Below, one piece after another: positions 6,219-15,099 of a DNA stretch of 64,000 bases. The DNA is from Pararhizobium sp. IMCC21322 (GTDB taxonomy: Bacteria; Pseudomonadota; Alphaproteobacteria; Rhizobiales; GCA-2746425): contig NZ_CP132335.1 in assembly GCF_030758295.1 (NCBI RefSeq), positions 3,758,412 through 3,822,411 on the forward strand, read 5' to 3'. The stretch's first letter is position 1, and each line of letters begins with the position of its first letter. The notes beneath the pieces were generated by a model. The model was not told the DNA's origin and searched no databases. It was given only the letters and a program-made list of their open reading frames with translations. Position numbers and translations under genes: made by a program.

Positions 6219-7058
6219 TTATAAATCCTTTGAGGTTGCGACACCCCATTTTATGACCGTTCGACGTTCGATAAATCCGAACAGAACACGTTCCAGCGTA
6301 ACGCCAATCAGGCCAACAATAATAAGGCCGGCAAACATCGCTTCTGAATCCAGGAACGTGCGCGCATCAAAGATCATAAACCCGACGCCATATGCGGTAG
6401 ATGCAAATATCTCTCCGGCGATGACGGCCCGCCATGCCCGCCCTAACGCGAGTTTGTGACCTGCAATAAGATAGGGCATTGTTGCCCCCAGCAGTACAGT
6501 TGTCAGGATTTGCCAGCGTGAGGCTCCGGCGGTTTGAGCCGCCCAAATCATGCGTTGAGGAACACTTTGCACACCGGCGGCTGCCGTGTAGATGATCGGA
6601 AAGCACGCGCCGGTGACAACCACAACGATCACGGTCTTCAATCCAAGCCCCATCCACAGGATAATGACCGGTACAAAGGCAATATTCGGGATTACCATGA
6701 ACATTGAAATGATCGGATTAAGCCACGCATAAATGGCCCGGTTCATCCCCATGATGAGGCCAATTGCAGATGATACCAACGCAGCCAGGAAGAAACCAAC
6801 GAGCAAGGCCAGCATGGTCATTCCAACATGGCGCAGCAAAAGAAAGTCGGGCGTTGCGCCTTTACCCGGACCGGTCATTTCGACTAGCCGCACCAAAACG
6901 GCAGATGGCGCAGGCATGAGCAACGCGTTCACACCACTCAATCGCACCGCCACTTCCCAGATCGCACCAAACAGCAGAATTGCGACAAATGGTGTCCATT
7001 TGTTGCCACGTAGCAAAGCAATTACGGGGTTTTCGATTTCCACAGATGACTTGCTCAT
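6219..7058 (-). CDS. ABC transporter permease, SsuC/TauC type
   Basis: Membrane subunit of a NitT/TauT-family importer, 279 residues with about six helices. The binding-protein-dependent transport motif for docking the ATPase is present around [20 protein letters not shown] and [20 protein letters not shown]. Its start overlaps the sulfatase stop (ATGA at 7055-7058), showing tight coupling to that enzyme. The ATPase gene starts directly after it. Length and topology are normal for the family. Confidence 0.92.
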
Positions 7059-8497
7059 GCCGCATCAACAGGTTTGGGTGCCGGTGTTGCACTTGCGCTG
7101 CGTTTGGTCGCAACCGCCTCGCGGCCACCAAGTTGATCAATCAGGACCTGCTGATCCGCCTTGGCTGCGCGATCTGTGGCTTCTGGATCGAGTATGCCAT
7201 TCAGTTGCGTCCTAAACTCGCGCAGAACACCGGAGAACTCTGGCTTCAGGGCAAGATTGGACAGCTCTTCCGGATCCTCTTCCAAATCGTAAAGCTCGGG
7301 CGCAAATCCGACATAGTGAATGTATTTGTAGCGTCCGCGCCGGATCATGTATTCTGCTGAACGAGCTGCGGTGGCGTGATACTCGCTAAAGATTGGGCGC
7401 GACATATCGTCAGGCAGGTTCGCAATCTCGATCAGTGACCGACCAGGGCGGTCCTCAGCAGGCTCAAGCCCGGCATTGTCAAGAGCAGTCGGAAAAACAT
7501 CGAGCAGCTGGACTGGAGTGCGGCAAATTTCGCCTTCGGGAATGCCTGGTCCTGCGATGATCATCGGCACCTGTACGGATTCATTATACATGGTGGACTT
7601 GCCCCATTGCCCACGCGCACCCAGGCTTTCTCCATGGTCAGACAGGAATATGACGCGGGTCGTTTTATCAAGGCCGGTCTCTTCCAGCACAGACAGGATT
7701 TGCCCCACACAATCATCGATAAAGCTGACAAGCGCATAGTAAGACGCTATCGCCAGCCGCCGATGCTCATCAGAGGTAAAATAGTTGTCCCAAAGGTAGC
7801 TGTTGTTAAAATCACGCCACCAGCCGGTCTGATCCGTGCCGTCATCAGGGCGTTGTTTGGGAAGCGGCATGTCGGCAGGATCATAAAGATCGAAGAACTG
7901 TTTCGGTGCCACAAGCGGGTAATGGGGGCAGATGAAAGACACGAATGTAGCCCAGGGCTGATCCGATGATCCGGCAGCCTGCTGCTCCAGCCAGTCCTTT
8001 GCACTGTCACGAATGTCGCGATCATATTGAGTGTACTCTGTTTCGCCGGGACCAAGATTGTCAGCCATATCGCGGCATTGGGGACGCGGCGACGGGGGAT
8101 CACGGACAAGACCCTGTGTGTCACCACCAGCATGGATATGCATCGGCAGAATCTGTCGATCAAATCCCGTTGACGCGCGATCATCAACATAATGCAATTT
8201 GCCAATTGATGTGGTTTCGATCCCCGCGCCCTGCAGACGATGCCCCCAGCTTTCAACATGCCCGTCATAGGCAATGCAATTGTCCCAATAGCTGGTCTGA
8301 TGGGGATATTGGCCCGTCGCAAGCGCAGCGCGTGCGGGAACACAGATTGGCGAATTCGTATAGGCGCTGTCAAACCGGGTGCCGCGCTGCGCAAGCCGGT
8401 CAAGGTTTGGTGTTTTCGCAATTGGGTGGCCGTAACAACCGAGCGCATGACTGCTATGCTCATCATCCATGATGATCAGCAGATTTGGGGTATCCAT
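7055..8497 (-). CDS. Sulfatase (formylglycine type), apparently cytoplasmic
   Basis: A 480-residue type I sulfatase of the alkaline-phosphatase superfamily that should hydrolyse a sulfate ester. Metal-binding Asp residues lie in IIMDDEHSSHA (about 11-12). The formylglycine motif is CVPAR at Cys52, followed by AALATGQYPH. A further metal site is LSDHGESLGARGQWGK, whose Lys probably contacts the sulfate. No signal peptide is visible: the protein starts MDTPNLLIIMDD directly at the first beta strand, so it should act in the cytoplasm after import. It sits between the binding protein and permease genes and overlaps the permease by 4 bases. An import-then-cleave pathway for a small sulfate ester is the obvious inference. 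The anaerobic or aerobic formylglycine-generating enzyme is not in the window. Confidence 0.9.
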   Translation of the reverse strand: MDTPNLLIIMDDEHSSHALGCYGHPIAKTPNLDRLAQRGTRFDSAYTNSPICVPARAALATGQYPHQTSYWDNCIAYDGHVESWGHRLQGAGIETTSIGKLHYVDDRASTGFDRQILPMHIHAGGDTQGLVRDPPSPRPQCRDMADNLGPGETEYTQYDRDIRDSAKDWLEQQAAGSSDQPWATFVSFICPHYPLVAPKQFFDLYDPADMPLPKQRPDDGTDQTGWWRDFNNSYLWDNYFTSDEHRRLAIASYYALVSFIDDCVGQILSVLEETGLDKTTRVIFLSDHGESLGARGQWGKSTMYNESVQVPMIIAGPGIPEGEICRTPVQLLDVFPTALDNAGLEPAEDRPGRSLIEIANLPDDMSRPIFSEYHATAARSAEYMIRRGRYKYIHYVGFAPELYDLEEDPEELSNLALKPEFSGVLREFRTQLNGILDPEATDRAAKADQQVLIDQLGGREAVATKRSASATPAPKPVDAA

Positions 8498-8533
8498 GAA
8501 TGCTCTCCAGTGGTCACGTCGTCAGATAGGACA

Positions 8534-8554
8534 GCCCGGGTGATTATGCCGGGC
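8534..8554. terminator. Intercistronic hairpin between binding protein and sulfatase
   Basis: GCCCGG and CCGGGC pair across a 9-base loop in the 68-base gap. There is no T tract. Such hairpins after a binding-protein gene commonly stabilise the upstream message or thin out downstream transcription, giving more binding protein than permease. Confidence 0.45.
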
Positions 8555-8565
8555 CGCCAAATGGA

Positions 8566-9552
8566 TCAGTTCATTTCAGCGACGATTTCCAGTGCTCTTG
8601 CATGAACATCGGGCAAAAGTGCCGCCGCAAAATCTGGCATATCACCAGAAAGCTTGCCAGCTGCGGACAGGCTTTCAAAAACACCCTGGAACACACGAAC
8701 TTTCCGTTCCGGATCAAACGATGGTGTGTAATCGAAATCGGCGAGCCCCATCTTCAGGATATCGGCCGTCAGGTCACGTCCCCGTTTTTGCATGCCAACT
8801 TCCAGAAGCGCTGCAGCCCGGTCCGGATCTTCAGCAAAAATCTGCTGAGCCTCAATTGTGGCCGCGACAAATTTTGCGACAAGCTCAGGATTCGCATTTG
8901 CAAATGCACGGTTGGAAACCCAACTTGCCTGACCTTCATTGGCGCCGGAGAAATTCATCATGATCCGTCCAAAACCTTTAGCCACGGCGATTGACGTGGT
9001 TGGCGCAAACCAGATGCCCGCTTCCACCGATCCGGCTTCTATGGCTGCCAGAATGGCACCGGGAGACGTATTCAGGATCTCAAAATCGTTGAGCGAACAC
9101 CCGTTTTTCGCGCACCAATCATTCAGTGCCCGATAAGACCCTGAGCCAATTTTGGTCGCAATGCGCTTGCCTTTGAGATCGTCAATAGTTTGGATTGGCG
9201 AGTCTTTGGCCACAATAACCTGTGCATATCCGCCGTCTGTCGACACGGCTGTGCCGATCACTGCGACCAGGTCTGTCTTGCTAAGAAGCGAGGTCAAAGG
9301 GGTTTCACCAACGCTTCCAACATCAACAGATCCGCCGATCAGGGCTTCGGTTACTTCGACACCGGTTTTCATCGGTACGACTTCCAGCTCCAGCCCGTAT
9401 TTTTCAGCAATTCCGCTTTCAATCAGTACAATGTCCCAATTTGACGAACGTGAGCTCATGCGGATCGTTTCCGCCCAAGCCGGTAGCGCCATTGTTGCAG
9501 TGACGGCAAGCGCCACCGCAGCCGTTAGAGCAGTGCGTATTGGATGTTGCAT
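8566..9552 (-). CDS. ABC transporter substrate-binding protein, NMT1/SsuA-like
   Basis: Periplasmic binding protein of the NitT/TauT class, 328 residues. It has a Sec signal peptide (MQHPIRTALTAAVALAVTA, cleavage after ALPAWA). The body shows the family's features: an early IRMSSRSSNWDIVLIESGIAEKYGLELEV strand-helix, then GGSVDVGSVGETPLTSLL and LKGKRIATKIGSGSY. The ATG at 9552 has a good GGGAGGA ribosome site. It is the first structural gene of the importer operon; the sulfatase follows after a hairpin-containing gap. The ligand is unknown; the embedded sulfatase suggests a sulfate ester or sulfonate. Confidence 0.91.
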   Translation of the reverse strand: MQHPIRTALTAAVALAVTATMALPAWAETIRMSSRSSNWDIVLIESGIAEKYGLELEVVPMKTGVEVTEALIGGSVDVGSVGETPLTSLLSKTDLVAVIGTAVSTDGGYAQVIVAKDSPIQTIDDLKGKRIATKIGSGSYRALNDWCAKNGCSLNDFEILNTSPGAILAAIEAGSVEAGIWFAPTTSIAVAKGFGRIMMNFSGANEGQASWVSNRAFANANPELVAKFVAATIEAQQIFAEDPDRAAALLEVGMQKRGRDLTADILKMGLADFDYTPSFDPERKVRVFQGVFESLSAAGKLSGDMPDFAAALLPDVHARALEIVAEMN

Positions 9553-11682: not shown

Positions 11683-13920
11683 ATGAACAGTAAGACGCAA
11701 TTGTCATTAATTTCGATTTTATTGGTAATTTGCCAATTCTTTTTCGTAGTTTCATCCCAAGCTCAAGAGACAACTCCCTGGACGATTGCAGTGGTTGGTC
11801 CAATGTCGGGAGACAGTGCGCAATTAGGCCGAGCCATGGTGGAAGCCGCACAAATTCGGGTCGATGAAGTTAATGCCGACGGCGGTGTGAACGGACGTCT
11901 CGTTGAATTGAAAACATATGACGATGAGAACTCAGCCACCAAGGCTGTTTTGGCCGCAAAACAAATCGCATTGGATGACAATAACCTTTTGGTCATTGGG
12001 CACCGAACCAGTGGTGCATCGATAGCGGCTGGGCCCATCTATCTGGAAAATAAGATTCCGGCCATATCAGGAACAGCGACAGCAGACGCACTCACGGTTG
12101 GTAACCCCTGGTACTTCCGCGTGACCTACAACAATGGCTTTCAGGCAGATTTTATAGCGAACTACATTAACAGCGTCCTTGGCTATAAGACCGCAACACT
12201 CGTCTCAACCAACAGTGTTTATGGTCGATCGCTGGCGAAGGCTTTTGTAACGGCTACAGGGAAACTGCCGCTAGAAATCAAACGCGAATTCACGGTCGAT
12301 GCGAAGAGCCCTGATATTGATCTTGATATGGCAGACATTGTTTCAGAACTGTCATTGGCACCTGACAGTGGCATGGTGTTTCTTGCGATGAATGCCGCCA
12401 ATGCGGCTCACTTCGTGCGTGAAATGCGAAATTCCGGCTTCACTCTGCCTATCTTCGGTCCGGACTCCATCAATCAGCAGTTTCCAACCTATTTTGAACC
12501 AGACCCAATTCTCAAGACGCGTCCGGGAGATTTCACCGACCAGATTTACGCCACGACATCCATGATCTGGGATGTTGCCAATGAGAATGCTGTGAACTTC
12601 CGCGCCAAATTTCGAAACAAATATGGCCATAATCCGGATTCCGGCAATGCGTTATATTACGACGCCGCCAGCGTGGCTATTCACGCGATAGAAAATGCGG
12701 AGATTTCCGGGACGGATATCATTCAGGATCGTGACGCCATTCGAAGCTTTCTCACATCAATTGACAAACCTATTGAGGCGTTTGATGGGATAACCGGGAA
12801 CATCTATTTCGATGACAAGGGCAACGCCATAAAATCTGTCCCTGTCGGGATATTTGAACTTGGAGAATTCATTTCGGCACCAATTCAGCTACAGCCGGTC
12901 CTAAATCCGGTTATGGTGCCAAACTTCTCCGAAAAGCTCGAATCCAAGGATATTATTCCCTACGCAGACGGGTACATGAATTCGGCCCAAATCGTCTATT
13001 TTGGGGTCGATATAAATGAAATCAGCAACCTCAACACGGCTACCGGGAACTACACATTAGATTTCTTTATCTGGTTCCGATACCGAGGCGATCTGGACTT
13101 ATCGAAAATTGAATTCAGCAATGCGGTAAGCCCGATCCGCTTGATCAACCCGATCTGGTCCCGCGAACGCAACAGTATGCAAATCCAGACGTTTAAAGTC
13201 AGGGGAACATTCCACGGCGACTTCCAGTTCAAAAATTATCCATTTGATAAACAGAATATCGTTTTGGAAGTTCGGCATCGCGATCTGACCAGCGAAAGTT
13301 TGAGGTTTGTCACAGATAATCTTGGGATGAGGTTGACCGGGGAAGGCGTGACACTCCTGTCCAGACTTCACGAGGAAGACGTTTTCCGGTCTGCCAAGGG
13401 CTGGCAAATGACCAACGCCCAAATTTATCAGGATGTTGTCAAAACGGCTTCAACCCTCGGTGAAACCCGGTCATTCCAGGGAGAGACTGCGGTAAACTTC
13501 TCAAAAATGAAAATGGAAATGGAAATTTCGCGCAAGCTGACCAGCTATAGCACAACTATTATGTTACCGATGGTCATCCTGTTTGTTATCGGACTATTGC
13601 TGTTCGCTGTTCCCATTCGCGAAATCCCGCCCAGATTGAGTGGCGGCATTCTGGTTTTGGTTACCGTGTCGCTGTTGAGAGCCCGGCTATCTAACGATCT
13701 TCCAAATATCGGCTATCTCGTGGCAATTGATTATATCTTTTTTGCTTTGCAGATTGTCATGTGGTTCTCGATCGCCGTTAGTGTCCTGGTATTTTGGGTA
13801 AACGAGCGAAAATCCGAGGTTTTGGCAAGTCGTTTAAACATCATAGGTGCGTCGCTGTATCCCTTGCCGATTATCGCGGTCGGTATCTATATTTGGTGGA
13901 GCGTTTCCTTTGTAGGGTAG
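11683..13920 (+). CDS. Type I periplasmic binding domain fused to a pentameric ligand-gated ion channel
   Basis: A 745-residue fusion. Residues 1-28 are a signal peptide (MNSKTQLSLISILL ... SSQAQ). Residues ~32-400 are a LivJ-type binding domain (IAVVGPMSGDSAQLGRAM, then VIGHRTSGASIAAGPIY and AISGTATADALT). Residues ~408-618 form the beta-sandwich of Cys-loop receptor relatives, shown by the hallmark NYPFDKQNIVLEV at about 518. Four helices follow: M1 ~622-644, M2 ~651-670, an M2-M3 loop with the conserved Pro (SNDLPNIGY), M3 ~678-706 and M4 ~718-741. As in other prokaryotic channels, the Cys-loop cysteines are absent. The likely role is a channel in the inner membrane gated by an amino-acid-like solute; that is inference. 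The start is set by GGGGGGA 2 bases upstream of the ATG. Monocistronic, with a terminator after it. Arginines in the outer half of M2 (LLRARLS) are unusual. Confidence 0.9.
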   Translation: MNSKTQLSLISILLVICQFFFVVSSQAQETTPWTIAVVGPMSGDSAQLGRAMVEAAQIRVDEVNADGGVNGRLVELKTYDDENSATKAVLAAKQIALDDNNLLVIGHRTSGASIAAGPIYLENKIPAISGTATADALTVGNPWYFRVTYNNGFQADFIANYINSVLGYKTATLVSTNSVYGRSLAKAFVTATGKLPLEIKREFTVDAKSPDIDLDMADIVSELSLAPDSGMVFLAMNAANAAHFVREMRNSGFTLPIFGPDSINQQFPTYFEPDPILKTRPGDFTDQIYATTSMIWDVANENAVNFRAKFRNKYGHNPDSGNALYYDAASVAIHAIENAEISGTDIIQDRDAIRSFLTSIDKPIEAFDGITGNIYFDDKGNAIKSVPVGIFELGEFISAPIQLQPVLNPVMVPNFSEKLESKDIIPYADGYMNSAQIVYFGVDINEISNLNTATGNYTLDFFIWFRYRGDLDLSKIEFSNAVSPIRLINPIWSRERNSMQIQTFKVRGTFHGDFQFKNYPFDKQNIVLEVRHRDLTSESLRFVTDNLGMRLTGEGVTLLSRLHEEDVFRSAKGWQMTNAQIYQDVVKTASTLGETRSFQGETAVNFSKMKMEMEISRKLTSYSTTIMLPMVILFVIGLLLFAVPIREIPPRLSGGILVLVTVSLLRARLSNDLPNIGYLVAIDYIFFALQIVMWFSIAVSVLVFWVNERKSEVLASRLNIIGASLYPLPIIAVGIYIWWSVSFVG

Positions 13921-13942
13921 ACCCCGGAGTAAGATCCGGGGT
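13921..13942 (+). terminator. Hairpin terminator after the channel fusion gene
   Basis: ACCCCGGA/TCCGGGGT, an 8-bp perfect stem with a 6-base loop, starts one base after the stop codon and is followed by TCCTTT. It isolates the channel gene from the convergent TAXI gene. Confidence 0.75.
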
Positions 13943-14118
13943 TCCTTTAAATGTTGTATGAAGGAACCCACAATCTCTCTACCGACTTCTGGAATCATCG
14001 TTCACGCTCTTCCGGGAAGAAGAAACGGCAAAACAGACCAGGCCTAAACCTGTGTGTTATTGAAATGGGCGAGACCTAAATTTCGGACAAAAATCCCTGA
14101 GATGTTCAATCCCGAAAC

Positions 14119-15084
14119 CTAAAAACCCGCTTCTTTGTAATAACGTATCGCACCGGGATGCAGTGGCGCTGAAAGACCATCCTTGATCATTTCTTCTTCT
14201 TTAAGATTACCCAAAGCCGGATGTAATCTGCGGAAGCGTCGCATGTTTTCAAATACCGATTTGGTCACTGCATAGACCACATCGTCAGGCACTTTAACTG
14301 AAGTGACAAGCGTAGCGCCCACACCAAACGTCTTCGTGTCATTTGGATTTCCCTGATACATACCGCCTGGAATAATTGCGGTTCTGTAATAGGGATTTTC
14401 GCTGATCAAAGCATCAACTTCTGGGCCCCCAACCTCAACCAACACGGTATCGCATTCCGTGGTAGCTTCCTTGATCGATCCGCTGGGATGGCCGACCGTA
14501 AAGACCATTGCATCAATTTTGTTATCGCACACCGCGCGTGCCTGTTCTGATGATTTGAGTTCGGTCACAAGAGAGAAATCACTGATTTTAATTCCCTTGG
14601 CCGCCATCAAGACATCCATGGTGCCACGGGACCCTGATCCAGGATTCCCGATGTTAACGCGTTTTCCAACTAAATCTTCGAACGATTTAATTCCCGAATC
14701 TGCCCGGGCAACCAAAGTGAACGGTTCCGGATGCACTGAAAAGACAGCTCTCAGCTCTGTGTCAGGGGTATCTTCCTCAAACTTGGAAGTTCCGTTCAGG
14801 CTGTGGAATTGCCAATCTGACTGAGCGATACCAAAGTCCAGCGTAGCAGCGCGGACCGCCTTGAGATTGTAAACTGACCCACCTGTGGACTCGACCTCGC
14901 ACATGACACCGTGGTCAGCGACACCGCGGTTTGTAAGCCTGCAAATTGCCCCTCCAGTTGGAAAATAAACACCGGTTTTCCCGCCGGTTCCAATCCGAAT
15001 TGTCGTTTCCTGTGAAAGAACTGCTGTTGCTGATGTCAAAACTGACAAAACGCCAACAATGATACTTGATGTGATACGACGCAT
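14119..15084 (-). CDS. TAXI-family TRAP solute-binding protein, orphan
   Basis: Periplasmic binding protein of the TRAP-associated extracytoplasmic immunogenic (TAXI) family, 321 residues from ATG 15084 (the frame also allows 15099). It has a signal peptide ending TAVLSQ. The family signature follows at once (TIRIGTGGKTGVYFPTGGAICRLTN), then FGIAQSDWQFHSLNGTSKFE and RVNIGNPGSGSRGTMDVL. The C-terminal SAPLHPGAIRYYKEAGF is typical. TAXI proteins normally work with a fused 4TM-12TM permease. No such permease is next to it, so it must use a distant one or have another partner. Its nearest neighbour is the ion-channel fusion gene, convergent with it. Confidence 0.92.
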   Translation of the reverse strand: MRRITSSIIVGVLSVLTSATAVLSQETTIRIGTGGKTGVYFPTGGAICRLTNRGVADHGVMCEVESTGGSVYNLKAVRAATLDFGIAQSDWQFHSLNGTSKFEEDTPDTELRAVFSVHPEPFTLVARADSGIKSFEDLVGKRVNIGNPGSGSRGTMDVLMAAKGIKISDFSLVTELKSSEQARAVCDNKIDAMVFTVGHPSGSIKEATTECDTVLVEVGGPEVDALISENPYYRTAIIPGGMYQGNPNDTKTFGVGATLVTSVKVPDDVVYAVTKSVFENMRRFRRLHPALGNLKEEEMIKDGLSAPLHPGAIRYYKEAGF

Positions 15085-15099
15085 TTTTTTCCCAACCAT

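Follow-up and report, generated by a model that had tools for sequence, protein, structure and literature searches.

A LivJ-type binding domain joined to a pentameric ligand-gated channel fold in Pararhizobium sp. IMCC21322, and relatives with the same head on MscS pores

Fusions of a type I periplasmic binding protein to a pentameric ligand-gated ion channel (PBP-I/pLGIC, or ART-LGIC, fusions) are known from alpha-proteobacteria. The accessible text of Tasneem et al. (2005; PMC549065) gives Magnetospirillum magnetotacticum and Bradyrhizobium japonicum as examples, and the architecture of the channel gene described here is therefore a known one, named in 2005. The same text reports PBP-II genes beside some bacterial channel genes. 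The biological role of prokaryotic pLGICs is described as unsettled in the accessible part of Jaiteh (2016).

The window analysed here is a stretch of 64,000 nucleotides of the Pararhizobium sp. IMCC21322 genome (contig NZ_CP132335.1), and it carries a fusion gene of this kind. A frame of 745 codons runs from an ATG at 11683 to a stop at 13920 with zero internal stops, as the original prediction of a single intact frame had stated. In the congener's homologue the corresponding position is likewise a Met (MNNKMQ...), which supports the start codon. Against the congener IMCC20636 (locus L080), the reference for constraint, dN/dS was 0.03 overall, 0.042 for the binding domain (SBP), 0.0055 for the beta sandwich (LBD) and 0.011 for the channel domain (TMD), with synonymous sites near saturation. 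The LBD is the most constrained domain of the protein. The intact frame and the dN/dS of 0.03 rule out a pseudogene or a frame artefact. Sequence, profile and predicted fold agree with the domain identities and the domain order first proposed. The features of the gene are as follows.

11683 to 13920, + strand: SBP-LBD-pLGIC gene, 745 aa
11683 to 11763, + strand: signal peptide, residues 1-27
11776 to 12828, + strand: LivJ-type periplasmic binding domain, residues 32-382
12829 to 12969, + strand: residues 383-429, linker that joins the binding domain to the LBD and can be aligned in relatives of both the pLGIC and the MscS type
12970 to 13533, + strand: beta sandwich of the Cys-loop-receptor type (LBD), residues 430-617, up to and including the pre-M1 Arg
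13237 to 13254, + strand: Pro-loop motif YPFDKQ
13537 to 13911, + strand: four-helix channel domain M1-M4, residues 619-743
13633 to 13635, + strand: R0', which follows P-2' P-1' where M2 opens to the cytoplasm (by alignment, a pattern of the anion type)
13678 to 13686, + strand: R15', A16' and R17' in outer M2

The N terminus is hydrophobic and has an S-Q-A site, after which the cut was placed by eye, in keeping with the signal peptide that had been claimed. Peripla_BP_6 (Pfam) spans residues 32-382 with an E-value of 1.5e-45, which bears out the LivJ-type domain, and ANF_receptor is a further match. Its nearest PDB relatives are branched-chain amino-acid binding proteins (4gnr, 3td9 and 3hut). 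Residues S110, T133 and D261 correspond to the LivJ contacts to the alpha-carboxylate and the alpha-amino group. All three are kept in five of five close relatives, and the pLGIC-type members of the wider family keep S110 in 28/32, T133 in 25/32 and D261 (as D or E) in 25/32; the positions are less conserved among the relatives with MscS-type pores described below. The position of LivJ Tyr202, which is Asn in the channel protein, is the exception in a domain that otherwise has the profile match and the cleft residues of a type I periplasmic binding protein of the LivJ class. Retention of the three cleft residues, by the close relatives and by the majority of the pLGIC-type members, supports an amino-acid-like ligand for this domain; the Asn at the Tyr202 position counts against it.

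Neur_chan_memb scored 18.7 bits on the channel protein, below its cutoff of 28.1, and Neur_chan_LBD was absent from the Pfam matches listed for the 745 residues. The Pfam search by which the channel part was to be checked was thus negative for one model and below cutoff for the other, and the homology came instead from other searches. A phmmer search of residues 408-745 against PDB chains matched an ELIC/GABA-A chimera (E 2e-9) with both the Pro-loop and the TMD aligned, and a family profile built from 21 sequences gave 1.5e-23 against PDB sequences and reached GLIC across both domains; its channel-domain match extends to the TMDs of GABA-A receptors and GLIC. The curated pLGIC models are too insensitive for this channel part, and we read the score below the cutoff as limited sensitivity. 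An AlphaFold model of residues 408-745, computed as a monomer, shows a beta sandwich followed by M1-M4 at moderate confidence (mean pLDDT 78.6), so that the predicted fold holds the sandwich and the four helices that were expected. Foldseek matched the model to PDB entries with E-values from 1.9e-17 and a TM-score of about 0.68, the best 50 matches listed being GABA-A/GlyR/GluCl-type receptors throughout. The phmmer, Foldseek and family-profile values rule out a chance match of the LBD. The pre-M1 Arg is invariant in the family alignment, and the M2-M3 Pro that had been pointed out is present in the channel protein and in most relatives. With sequence homology, a Pro-loop Pro in the LBD, M1-M4 and these two residues, the protein belongs to the pLGIC/Pro-loop superfamily. 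Its sole Cys, C17, lies within the signal peptide, which rules out a Cys-loop disulphide and places the protein outside the animal Cys-loop receptors in the strict sense.

M2 was numbered by a gap-free fit to ELIC, GLIC and GlyR and reads P-2' P-1' R0' S2' L6' V9' T10' R15' R17' D21' P23'. By this fit the Thr that had been assigned to 9' falls at 10', with Val at 9', while the two arginines seen in outer M2 are indeed there, at 15' and 17'. Arg or Lys occupies 17' in 14 of 21 relatives and is therefore a family trait. Glu is absent at -1' and -2'. From P-2' P-1' R0', the lack of Glu at -1' and R17', the pore is probably anion-permeable. Beyond the Cys-loop clade, inferring selectivity from the residues of M2 in this way is uncertain; there, according to the accessible part of Jaiteh (2016), phylogeny cannot tell ion selectivity. 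Two relatives from Chloroflexota have Glu at -1', so that the SBP-LBD-pLGIC family may hold both selectivities; both are expected for prokaryotic channels in general in the accessible text of Tasneem et al. (2005; PMC549065).

A class-wide search with the channel part brought up ORFs of about 1000-1200 aa with a different pore. Their order is an SBP, a domain aligning to the LBD of the channel protein, and MS_channel_2nd of MscS, followed in some by cNMP_binding. MS_channel_2nd scored over its cutoff in L020-L023, L029, L037, L041, L042, L046, L050, L063, L070 and L102; in the channel protein itself Pfam found no MS_channel_2nd, and the protein does not belong to the MscS superfamily. The MscS-borne and pLGIC-borne LBD sets align at the profile level (E 1.5e-68 over 201 columns). 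The LBD of an MscS-type protein, folded alone with AlphaFold, reached a pLDDT of 88.7. AChBP was found in all Foldseek matches listed for this model (E from 5e-10), and ELIC, GABA-A and sTeLIC chains gave Z-scores of 14-15, an ELIC chimera 15.3. The modelled LBD thus has the AChBP/pLGIC LBD fold. The kinship rests on fold and profile comparison, since the MscS-borne LBD profile had zero matches among PDB sequences. Such fusions occur in isolates of Desulfoluna and, in finished genomes, on plasmids of Azospirillum, which speaks against an assembly artefact. One of the Azospirillum plasmid proteins is annotated merely as "ABC transporter substrate-binding protein".

The Pro-loop differs between the two groups. 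By alignment column, Pro is present in 42/42 and Asp in 41/42 of the pLGIC-type proteins, whereas the MscS-type proteins have Pro in 18/84 and Asp in 2/84. In pLGICs the Pro-loop makes contact with the M2-M3 loop. Its state follows the pore type, as expected if it couples to the pLGIC pore. The contrast may reflect few independent events, because the pore swap is rare and the pore types are nearly the two sides of one branch.

The channel gene itself is patchy, being present in one of four other congeners searched. A copy at 69% identity occurs in another family within the same taxonomic order, and copies with 58-68% LBD identity occur in one Boseongicola MAG and three gammaproteobacterial MAGs. 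At an E-value of 1e-4 or better, and with all architectures pooled, the channel part matched 10 of the 385 genomes sampled from the class and 43 of the 398 sampled from the phylum. A scan of contigs gave 79 loci in Pseudomonadota, Thermodesulfobacteriota, Chloroflexota, Cyanobacteriota, Actinomycetota, Verrucomicrobiota and others. Over all loci, 96 ORFs were called SBP-LBD-MscS, 11 of them ending at a contig or locus boundary, and 45 SBP-LBD-pLGIC; these totals include a few repeats of one gene, and 84 and 42, respectively, were left after identical LBDs were dropped. Fusions to a pLGIC had been thought to be reported only rarely, and this holds for the literature, in which Tasneem et al. (2005) named two organisms; it does not hold for sequence data, since the gathered loci yielded 45 such ORFs, 42 of them distinct.

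In a tree of SBP plus LBD (99 rows), MscS types and pLGIC types are split by one branch with an SH-aLRT of 88. A tree of the SBP only, with 11 stand-alone SBPs as outgroup, places the fused SBPs in one clade (98). When this tree is rooted by the outgroup, the pLGIC types branch earliest, several inner branches being weak; there are 5 label changes, outgroup included, and no clean split, with L078 among the pLGIC types. The rooted tree suggests that the pLGIC pore came first and the MscS pore later, and the safe statement for the number of pore swaps would be one to a few. We consider it fairly probable that the LivJ-type domain and the Cys-loop-type LBD form a transferable sensing head, which would have originated on a pLGIC and later been grafted onto MscS, other lines adding a type II domain after M4. 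If so, there would be ligand-gated MscS channels, some with a cyclic-nucleotide domain and some as paired paralogues, and an LBD known from pentamers would work on pores of a family whose known assembly is heptameric.

Six SBP-LBD-pLGIC proteins from Cyanobacteriota, Parabeggiatoa and Chloroflexota (L087, L090, L093, L098, L104 and L124) have more than 250 residues beyond the M1-M4 match. Four of the six were scanned, and in each the extension proved to be SBP_bac_1, a binding domain of type II (E 6e-30 to 4e-34). These four carry their type I domain N-terminally and the type II domain after M4:

L087, 6495-10286: SBP_bac_1-bearing pLGIC
L090, 6636-10271: SBP_bac_1-bearing pLGIC
L104, 6405-10322: SBP_bac_1-bearing pLGIC
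L124, 6615-10274: SBP_bac_1-bearing pLGIC

The M4 helix of pLGICs ends outside, so the added domain would be periplasmic.

Other arrangements were seen among the relatives. Tandem SBP-LBD-MscS paralogues are present at 11 loci of large sulfur bacteria (L094, L102, L105, L107, L108, L113, L116, L117, L139, L142 and L145). The second gene was called CNBD-bearing by motif search in ten of these, and Pfam confirms the call for L102; the pairs could possibly form heteromeric channels. At L120 (4076-10991) an SBP-LBD-pLGIC gene is followed on the same strand by an SBP-LBD-MscS gene. L060 (2366-4552) encodes an SBP-LBD protein that has no recognised pore and ends soon after one hydrophobic stretch. 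At L064 (1418-4946) an SBP-LBD-pLGIC ORF overlaps the next, a stand-alone pLGIC ORF of 403 codons, possibly giving a two-subunit channel. In Streptomyces flavidovirens (L134, 8701-10284) an ORF for a second LBD-like membrane protein lies directly 3' of the SBP-LBD-pLGIC gene. Two pLGICs of small-genome alphaproteobacteria (L025, 1420-2781; L027, 541-1935) have a possible PDZ-like N-terminal domain, a weak match (PDZ_2, E 0.0017 in L025).

How the window's channel might work can be put as follows. The protein would form a homopentameric pLGIC in the inner membrane with one periplasmic LivJ-type clamshell per subunit. An amino-acid-like solute would bind and close the clamshell, and the closure would pass through the conserved linker to the beta sandwich, which would serve mainly as transducer. 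The Pro-loop of the sandwich would then act on the M2-M3 loop and open the pore, probably to anions. Gating by solute capture in the binding domain is plausible from the sequence, and we regard the solute-gated homopentamer as a whole, including the partner protein described below, as moderately probable. The aromatic residue in loop B of ELIC is a Phe. The channel protein aligns an Arg with it, and the family a conserved RH/RN motif, which speaks for the LBD as a transducer.

The same LBD might instead hold the agonist. The binding domain would then merely gather ligand, and the agonist would bind at the classical inter-subunit site, as in ELIC and nicotinic receptors. Such a scheme is near to that of Tasneem et al. 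(2005; PMC549065), whose accessible text suggests ligand concentration by domains of this type, and it is consistent with the complete LBD fold and with the strong constraint on the LBD. We nevertheless consider it unlikely, in view of the Arg in place of the loop B aromatic and of SBP and LBD staying intact on MscS pores, which is easier to reconcile with a coupled head than with a local store. Since the head is kept intact on two unrelated pores, the simplest view is that it drives a conformational change and does not just concentrate ligand locally.

The neighbourhood of the channel gene adds a candidate partner.

13920 to 13943, + strand: hairpin past the stop codon, possible weak terminator
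14119 to 15099, - strand: TAXI (NMT1_3) solute-binding protein gene (PF16868, E 3.2e-88), evolutionarily linked to the channel gene

The hairpin has a 9-bp stem and folds at -21.5 kcal/mol (z -3.3 for 13915-13965), but its T tract is weak and a consensus terminator scan made no call there, so the claim that the gene has its own terminator stands only in part. Nor is the gene quite as single as it had been taken to be. By blastn, the 16.5-kb congener locus has two segments in common with the window; one is the channel gene and the other the TAXI gene that converges on it. A TAXI gene adjoins the channel gene in seven of seven close relatives (downstream convergent in four, upstream tandem in five, both in two). 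This adjacency is unlikely to be chance because NMT1_3 genes above the cutoff number only five in the window's genome, although the seven relatives are akin. A stand-alone pLGIC locus (L076) also has a TAXI gene; none was found at the other fusion loci gathered. In the window the gene is convergent to the channel gene and not co-transcribed with it, which counts against such a partnership. The nearest solved relatives of its product are TAXI proteins, including 1us4, "putative GluR0 ligand binding core", and a TAXI protein of V. cholerae binds glutamate according to the accessible text of PMC11574862. The sulfatase and NMT1-type ABC substrate-binding protein genes upstream of the channel gene (7055-9552, - strand) are not common to the congener locus.

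In the solute-gated channel favoured here, the TAXI protein would possibly bring ligand or modulate the channel. A larger part for it is conceivable: liganded TAXI protein docking on the channel would be the main signal, and the fused LivJ-type domain would be a docking platform or brake with little binding of its own. The adjacency in all seven close relatives, in two arrangements and from so few such genes, the two segments that alone are common to the congener locus, and the type II domains fused after M4 in the four scanned relatives all agree with this. It seems quite improbable all the same, because the gathered fusion loci other than those of the close relatives showed no TAXI gene, the stand-alone pLGIC locus apart, and because the fused domain has kept its cleft residues. 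That the protein is natively non-conducting and acts as a scaffold or sensor under the control of ligand, with a pore domain that does no more than relay a shape change, would suit a group of channels without known biological role (Jaiteh 2016, accessible part), but is very unlikely given the strong constraint on M2 (TMD dN/dS 0.011) and the channel, pLGIC or MscS, kept in nearly every complete ORF of the relatives.

The LivJ-type domain, being soluble and easily assayed, offers a way to the agonist class, and the gene yields a testable prediction of an anion pore. On MscS pores the head provides a natural experiment in which sensor and pore are parted, and the MscS-borne heads may tell which part of the LBD is for generic transduction and which, such as the Pro-loop, serves the pLGIC pore alone. 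The SBP-LBD-MscS proteins also pose a structural puzzle, five-fold versus seven-fold assembly.

Our literature search covered few subscription journals and no preprints, so that absence from it counts as weak evidence; it returned no report of the SBP and LBD head on MscS pores. Within the same partial coverage, there was no report of a pLGIC with a second, type II binding domain past M4, or of a recurrent linkage of TAXI genes to binding-protein-headed channel genes. The fusions of Tasneem et al. (2005; PMC549065) are alike in architecture, with an N-terminal type I periplasmic binding domain, LBD and 4-TM channel. They differ in that the accessible text does not report MscS versions (the word "mechanosensitive" is absent) and does not mention a C-terminal type II binding domain. 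Among characterised bacterial channels, ELIC, GLIC, sTeLIC and DeCLIC share with the channel protein the LBD and TMD fold, the Pro-loop and the lack of a Cys-loop disulphide, but have no binding-protein head, DeCLIC having jelly-roll N-terminal domains; the entry of M2 contains Glu in characterised bacterial pLGICs and is P-2' P-1' R0' in the channel protein. Animal glycine and GABA-A receptors and GluCl are the best fold matches and share P-2' and R0' at the pore entry. They differ by the Cys-loop disulphide, the long M3-M4 loop and the lack of a binding-protein head. The MscS superfamily, including bCNG channels with cNMP domains, resembles the relatives that have MS_channel_2nd, and sometimes cNMP_binding, after the same SBP and LBD head, but the channel protein itself has a pLGIC pore. 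Finally, ionotropic glutamate receptors also use binding-protein clamshells to drive an ion pore, and the pLGICs with both type I and type II binding domains have the same two domain classes. The pore of those receptors, however, is a tetrameric P-loop inside the type II binding domain and unrelated to pLGICs, whereas here it is the 4-TM domain of a pLGIC. By keeping one head on pLGIC and MscS pores, this family suggests that SBP and LBD make up a reusable ligand-gating module.
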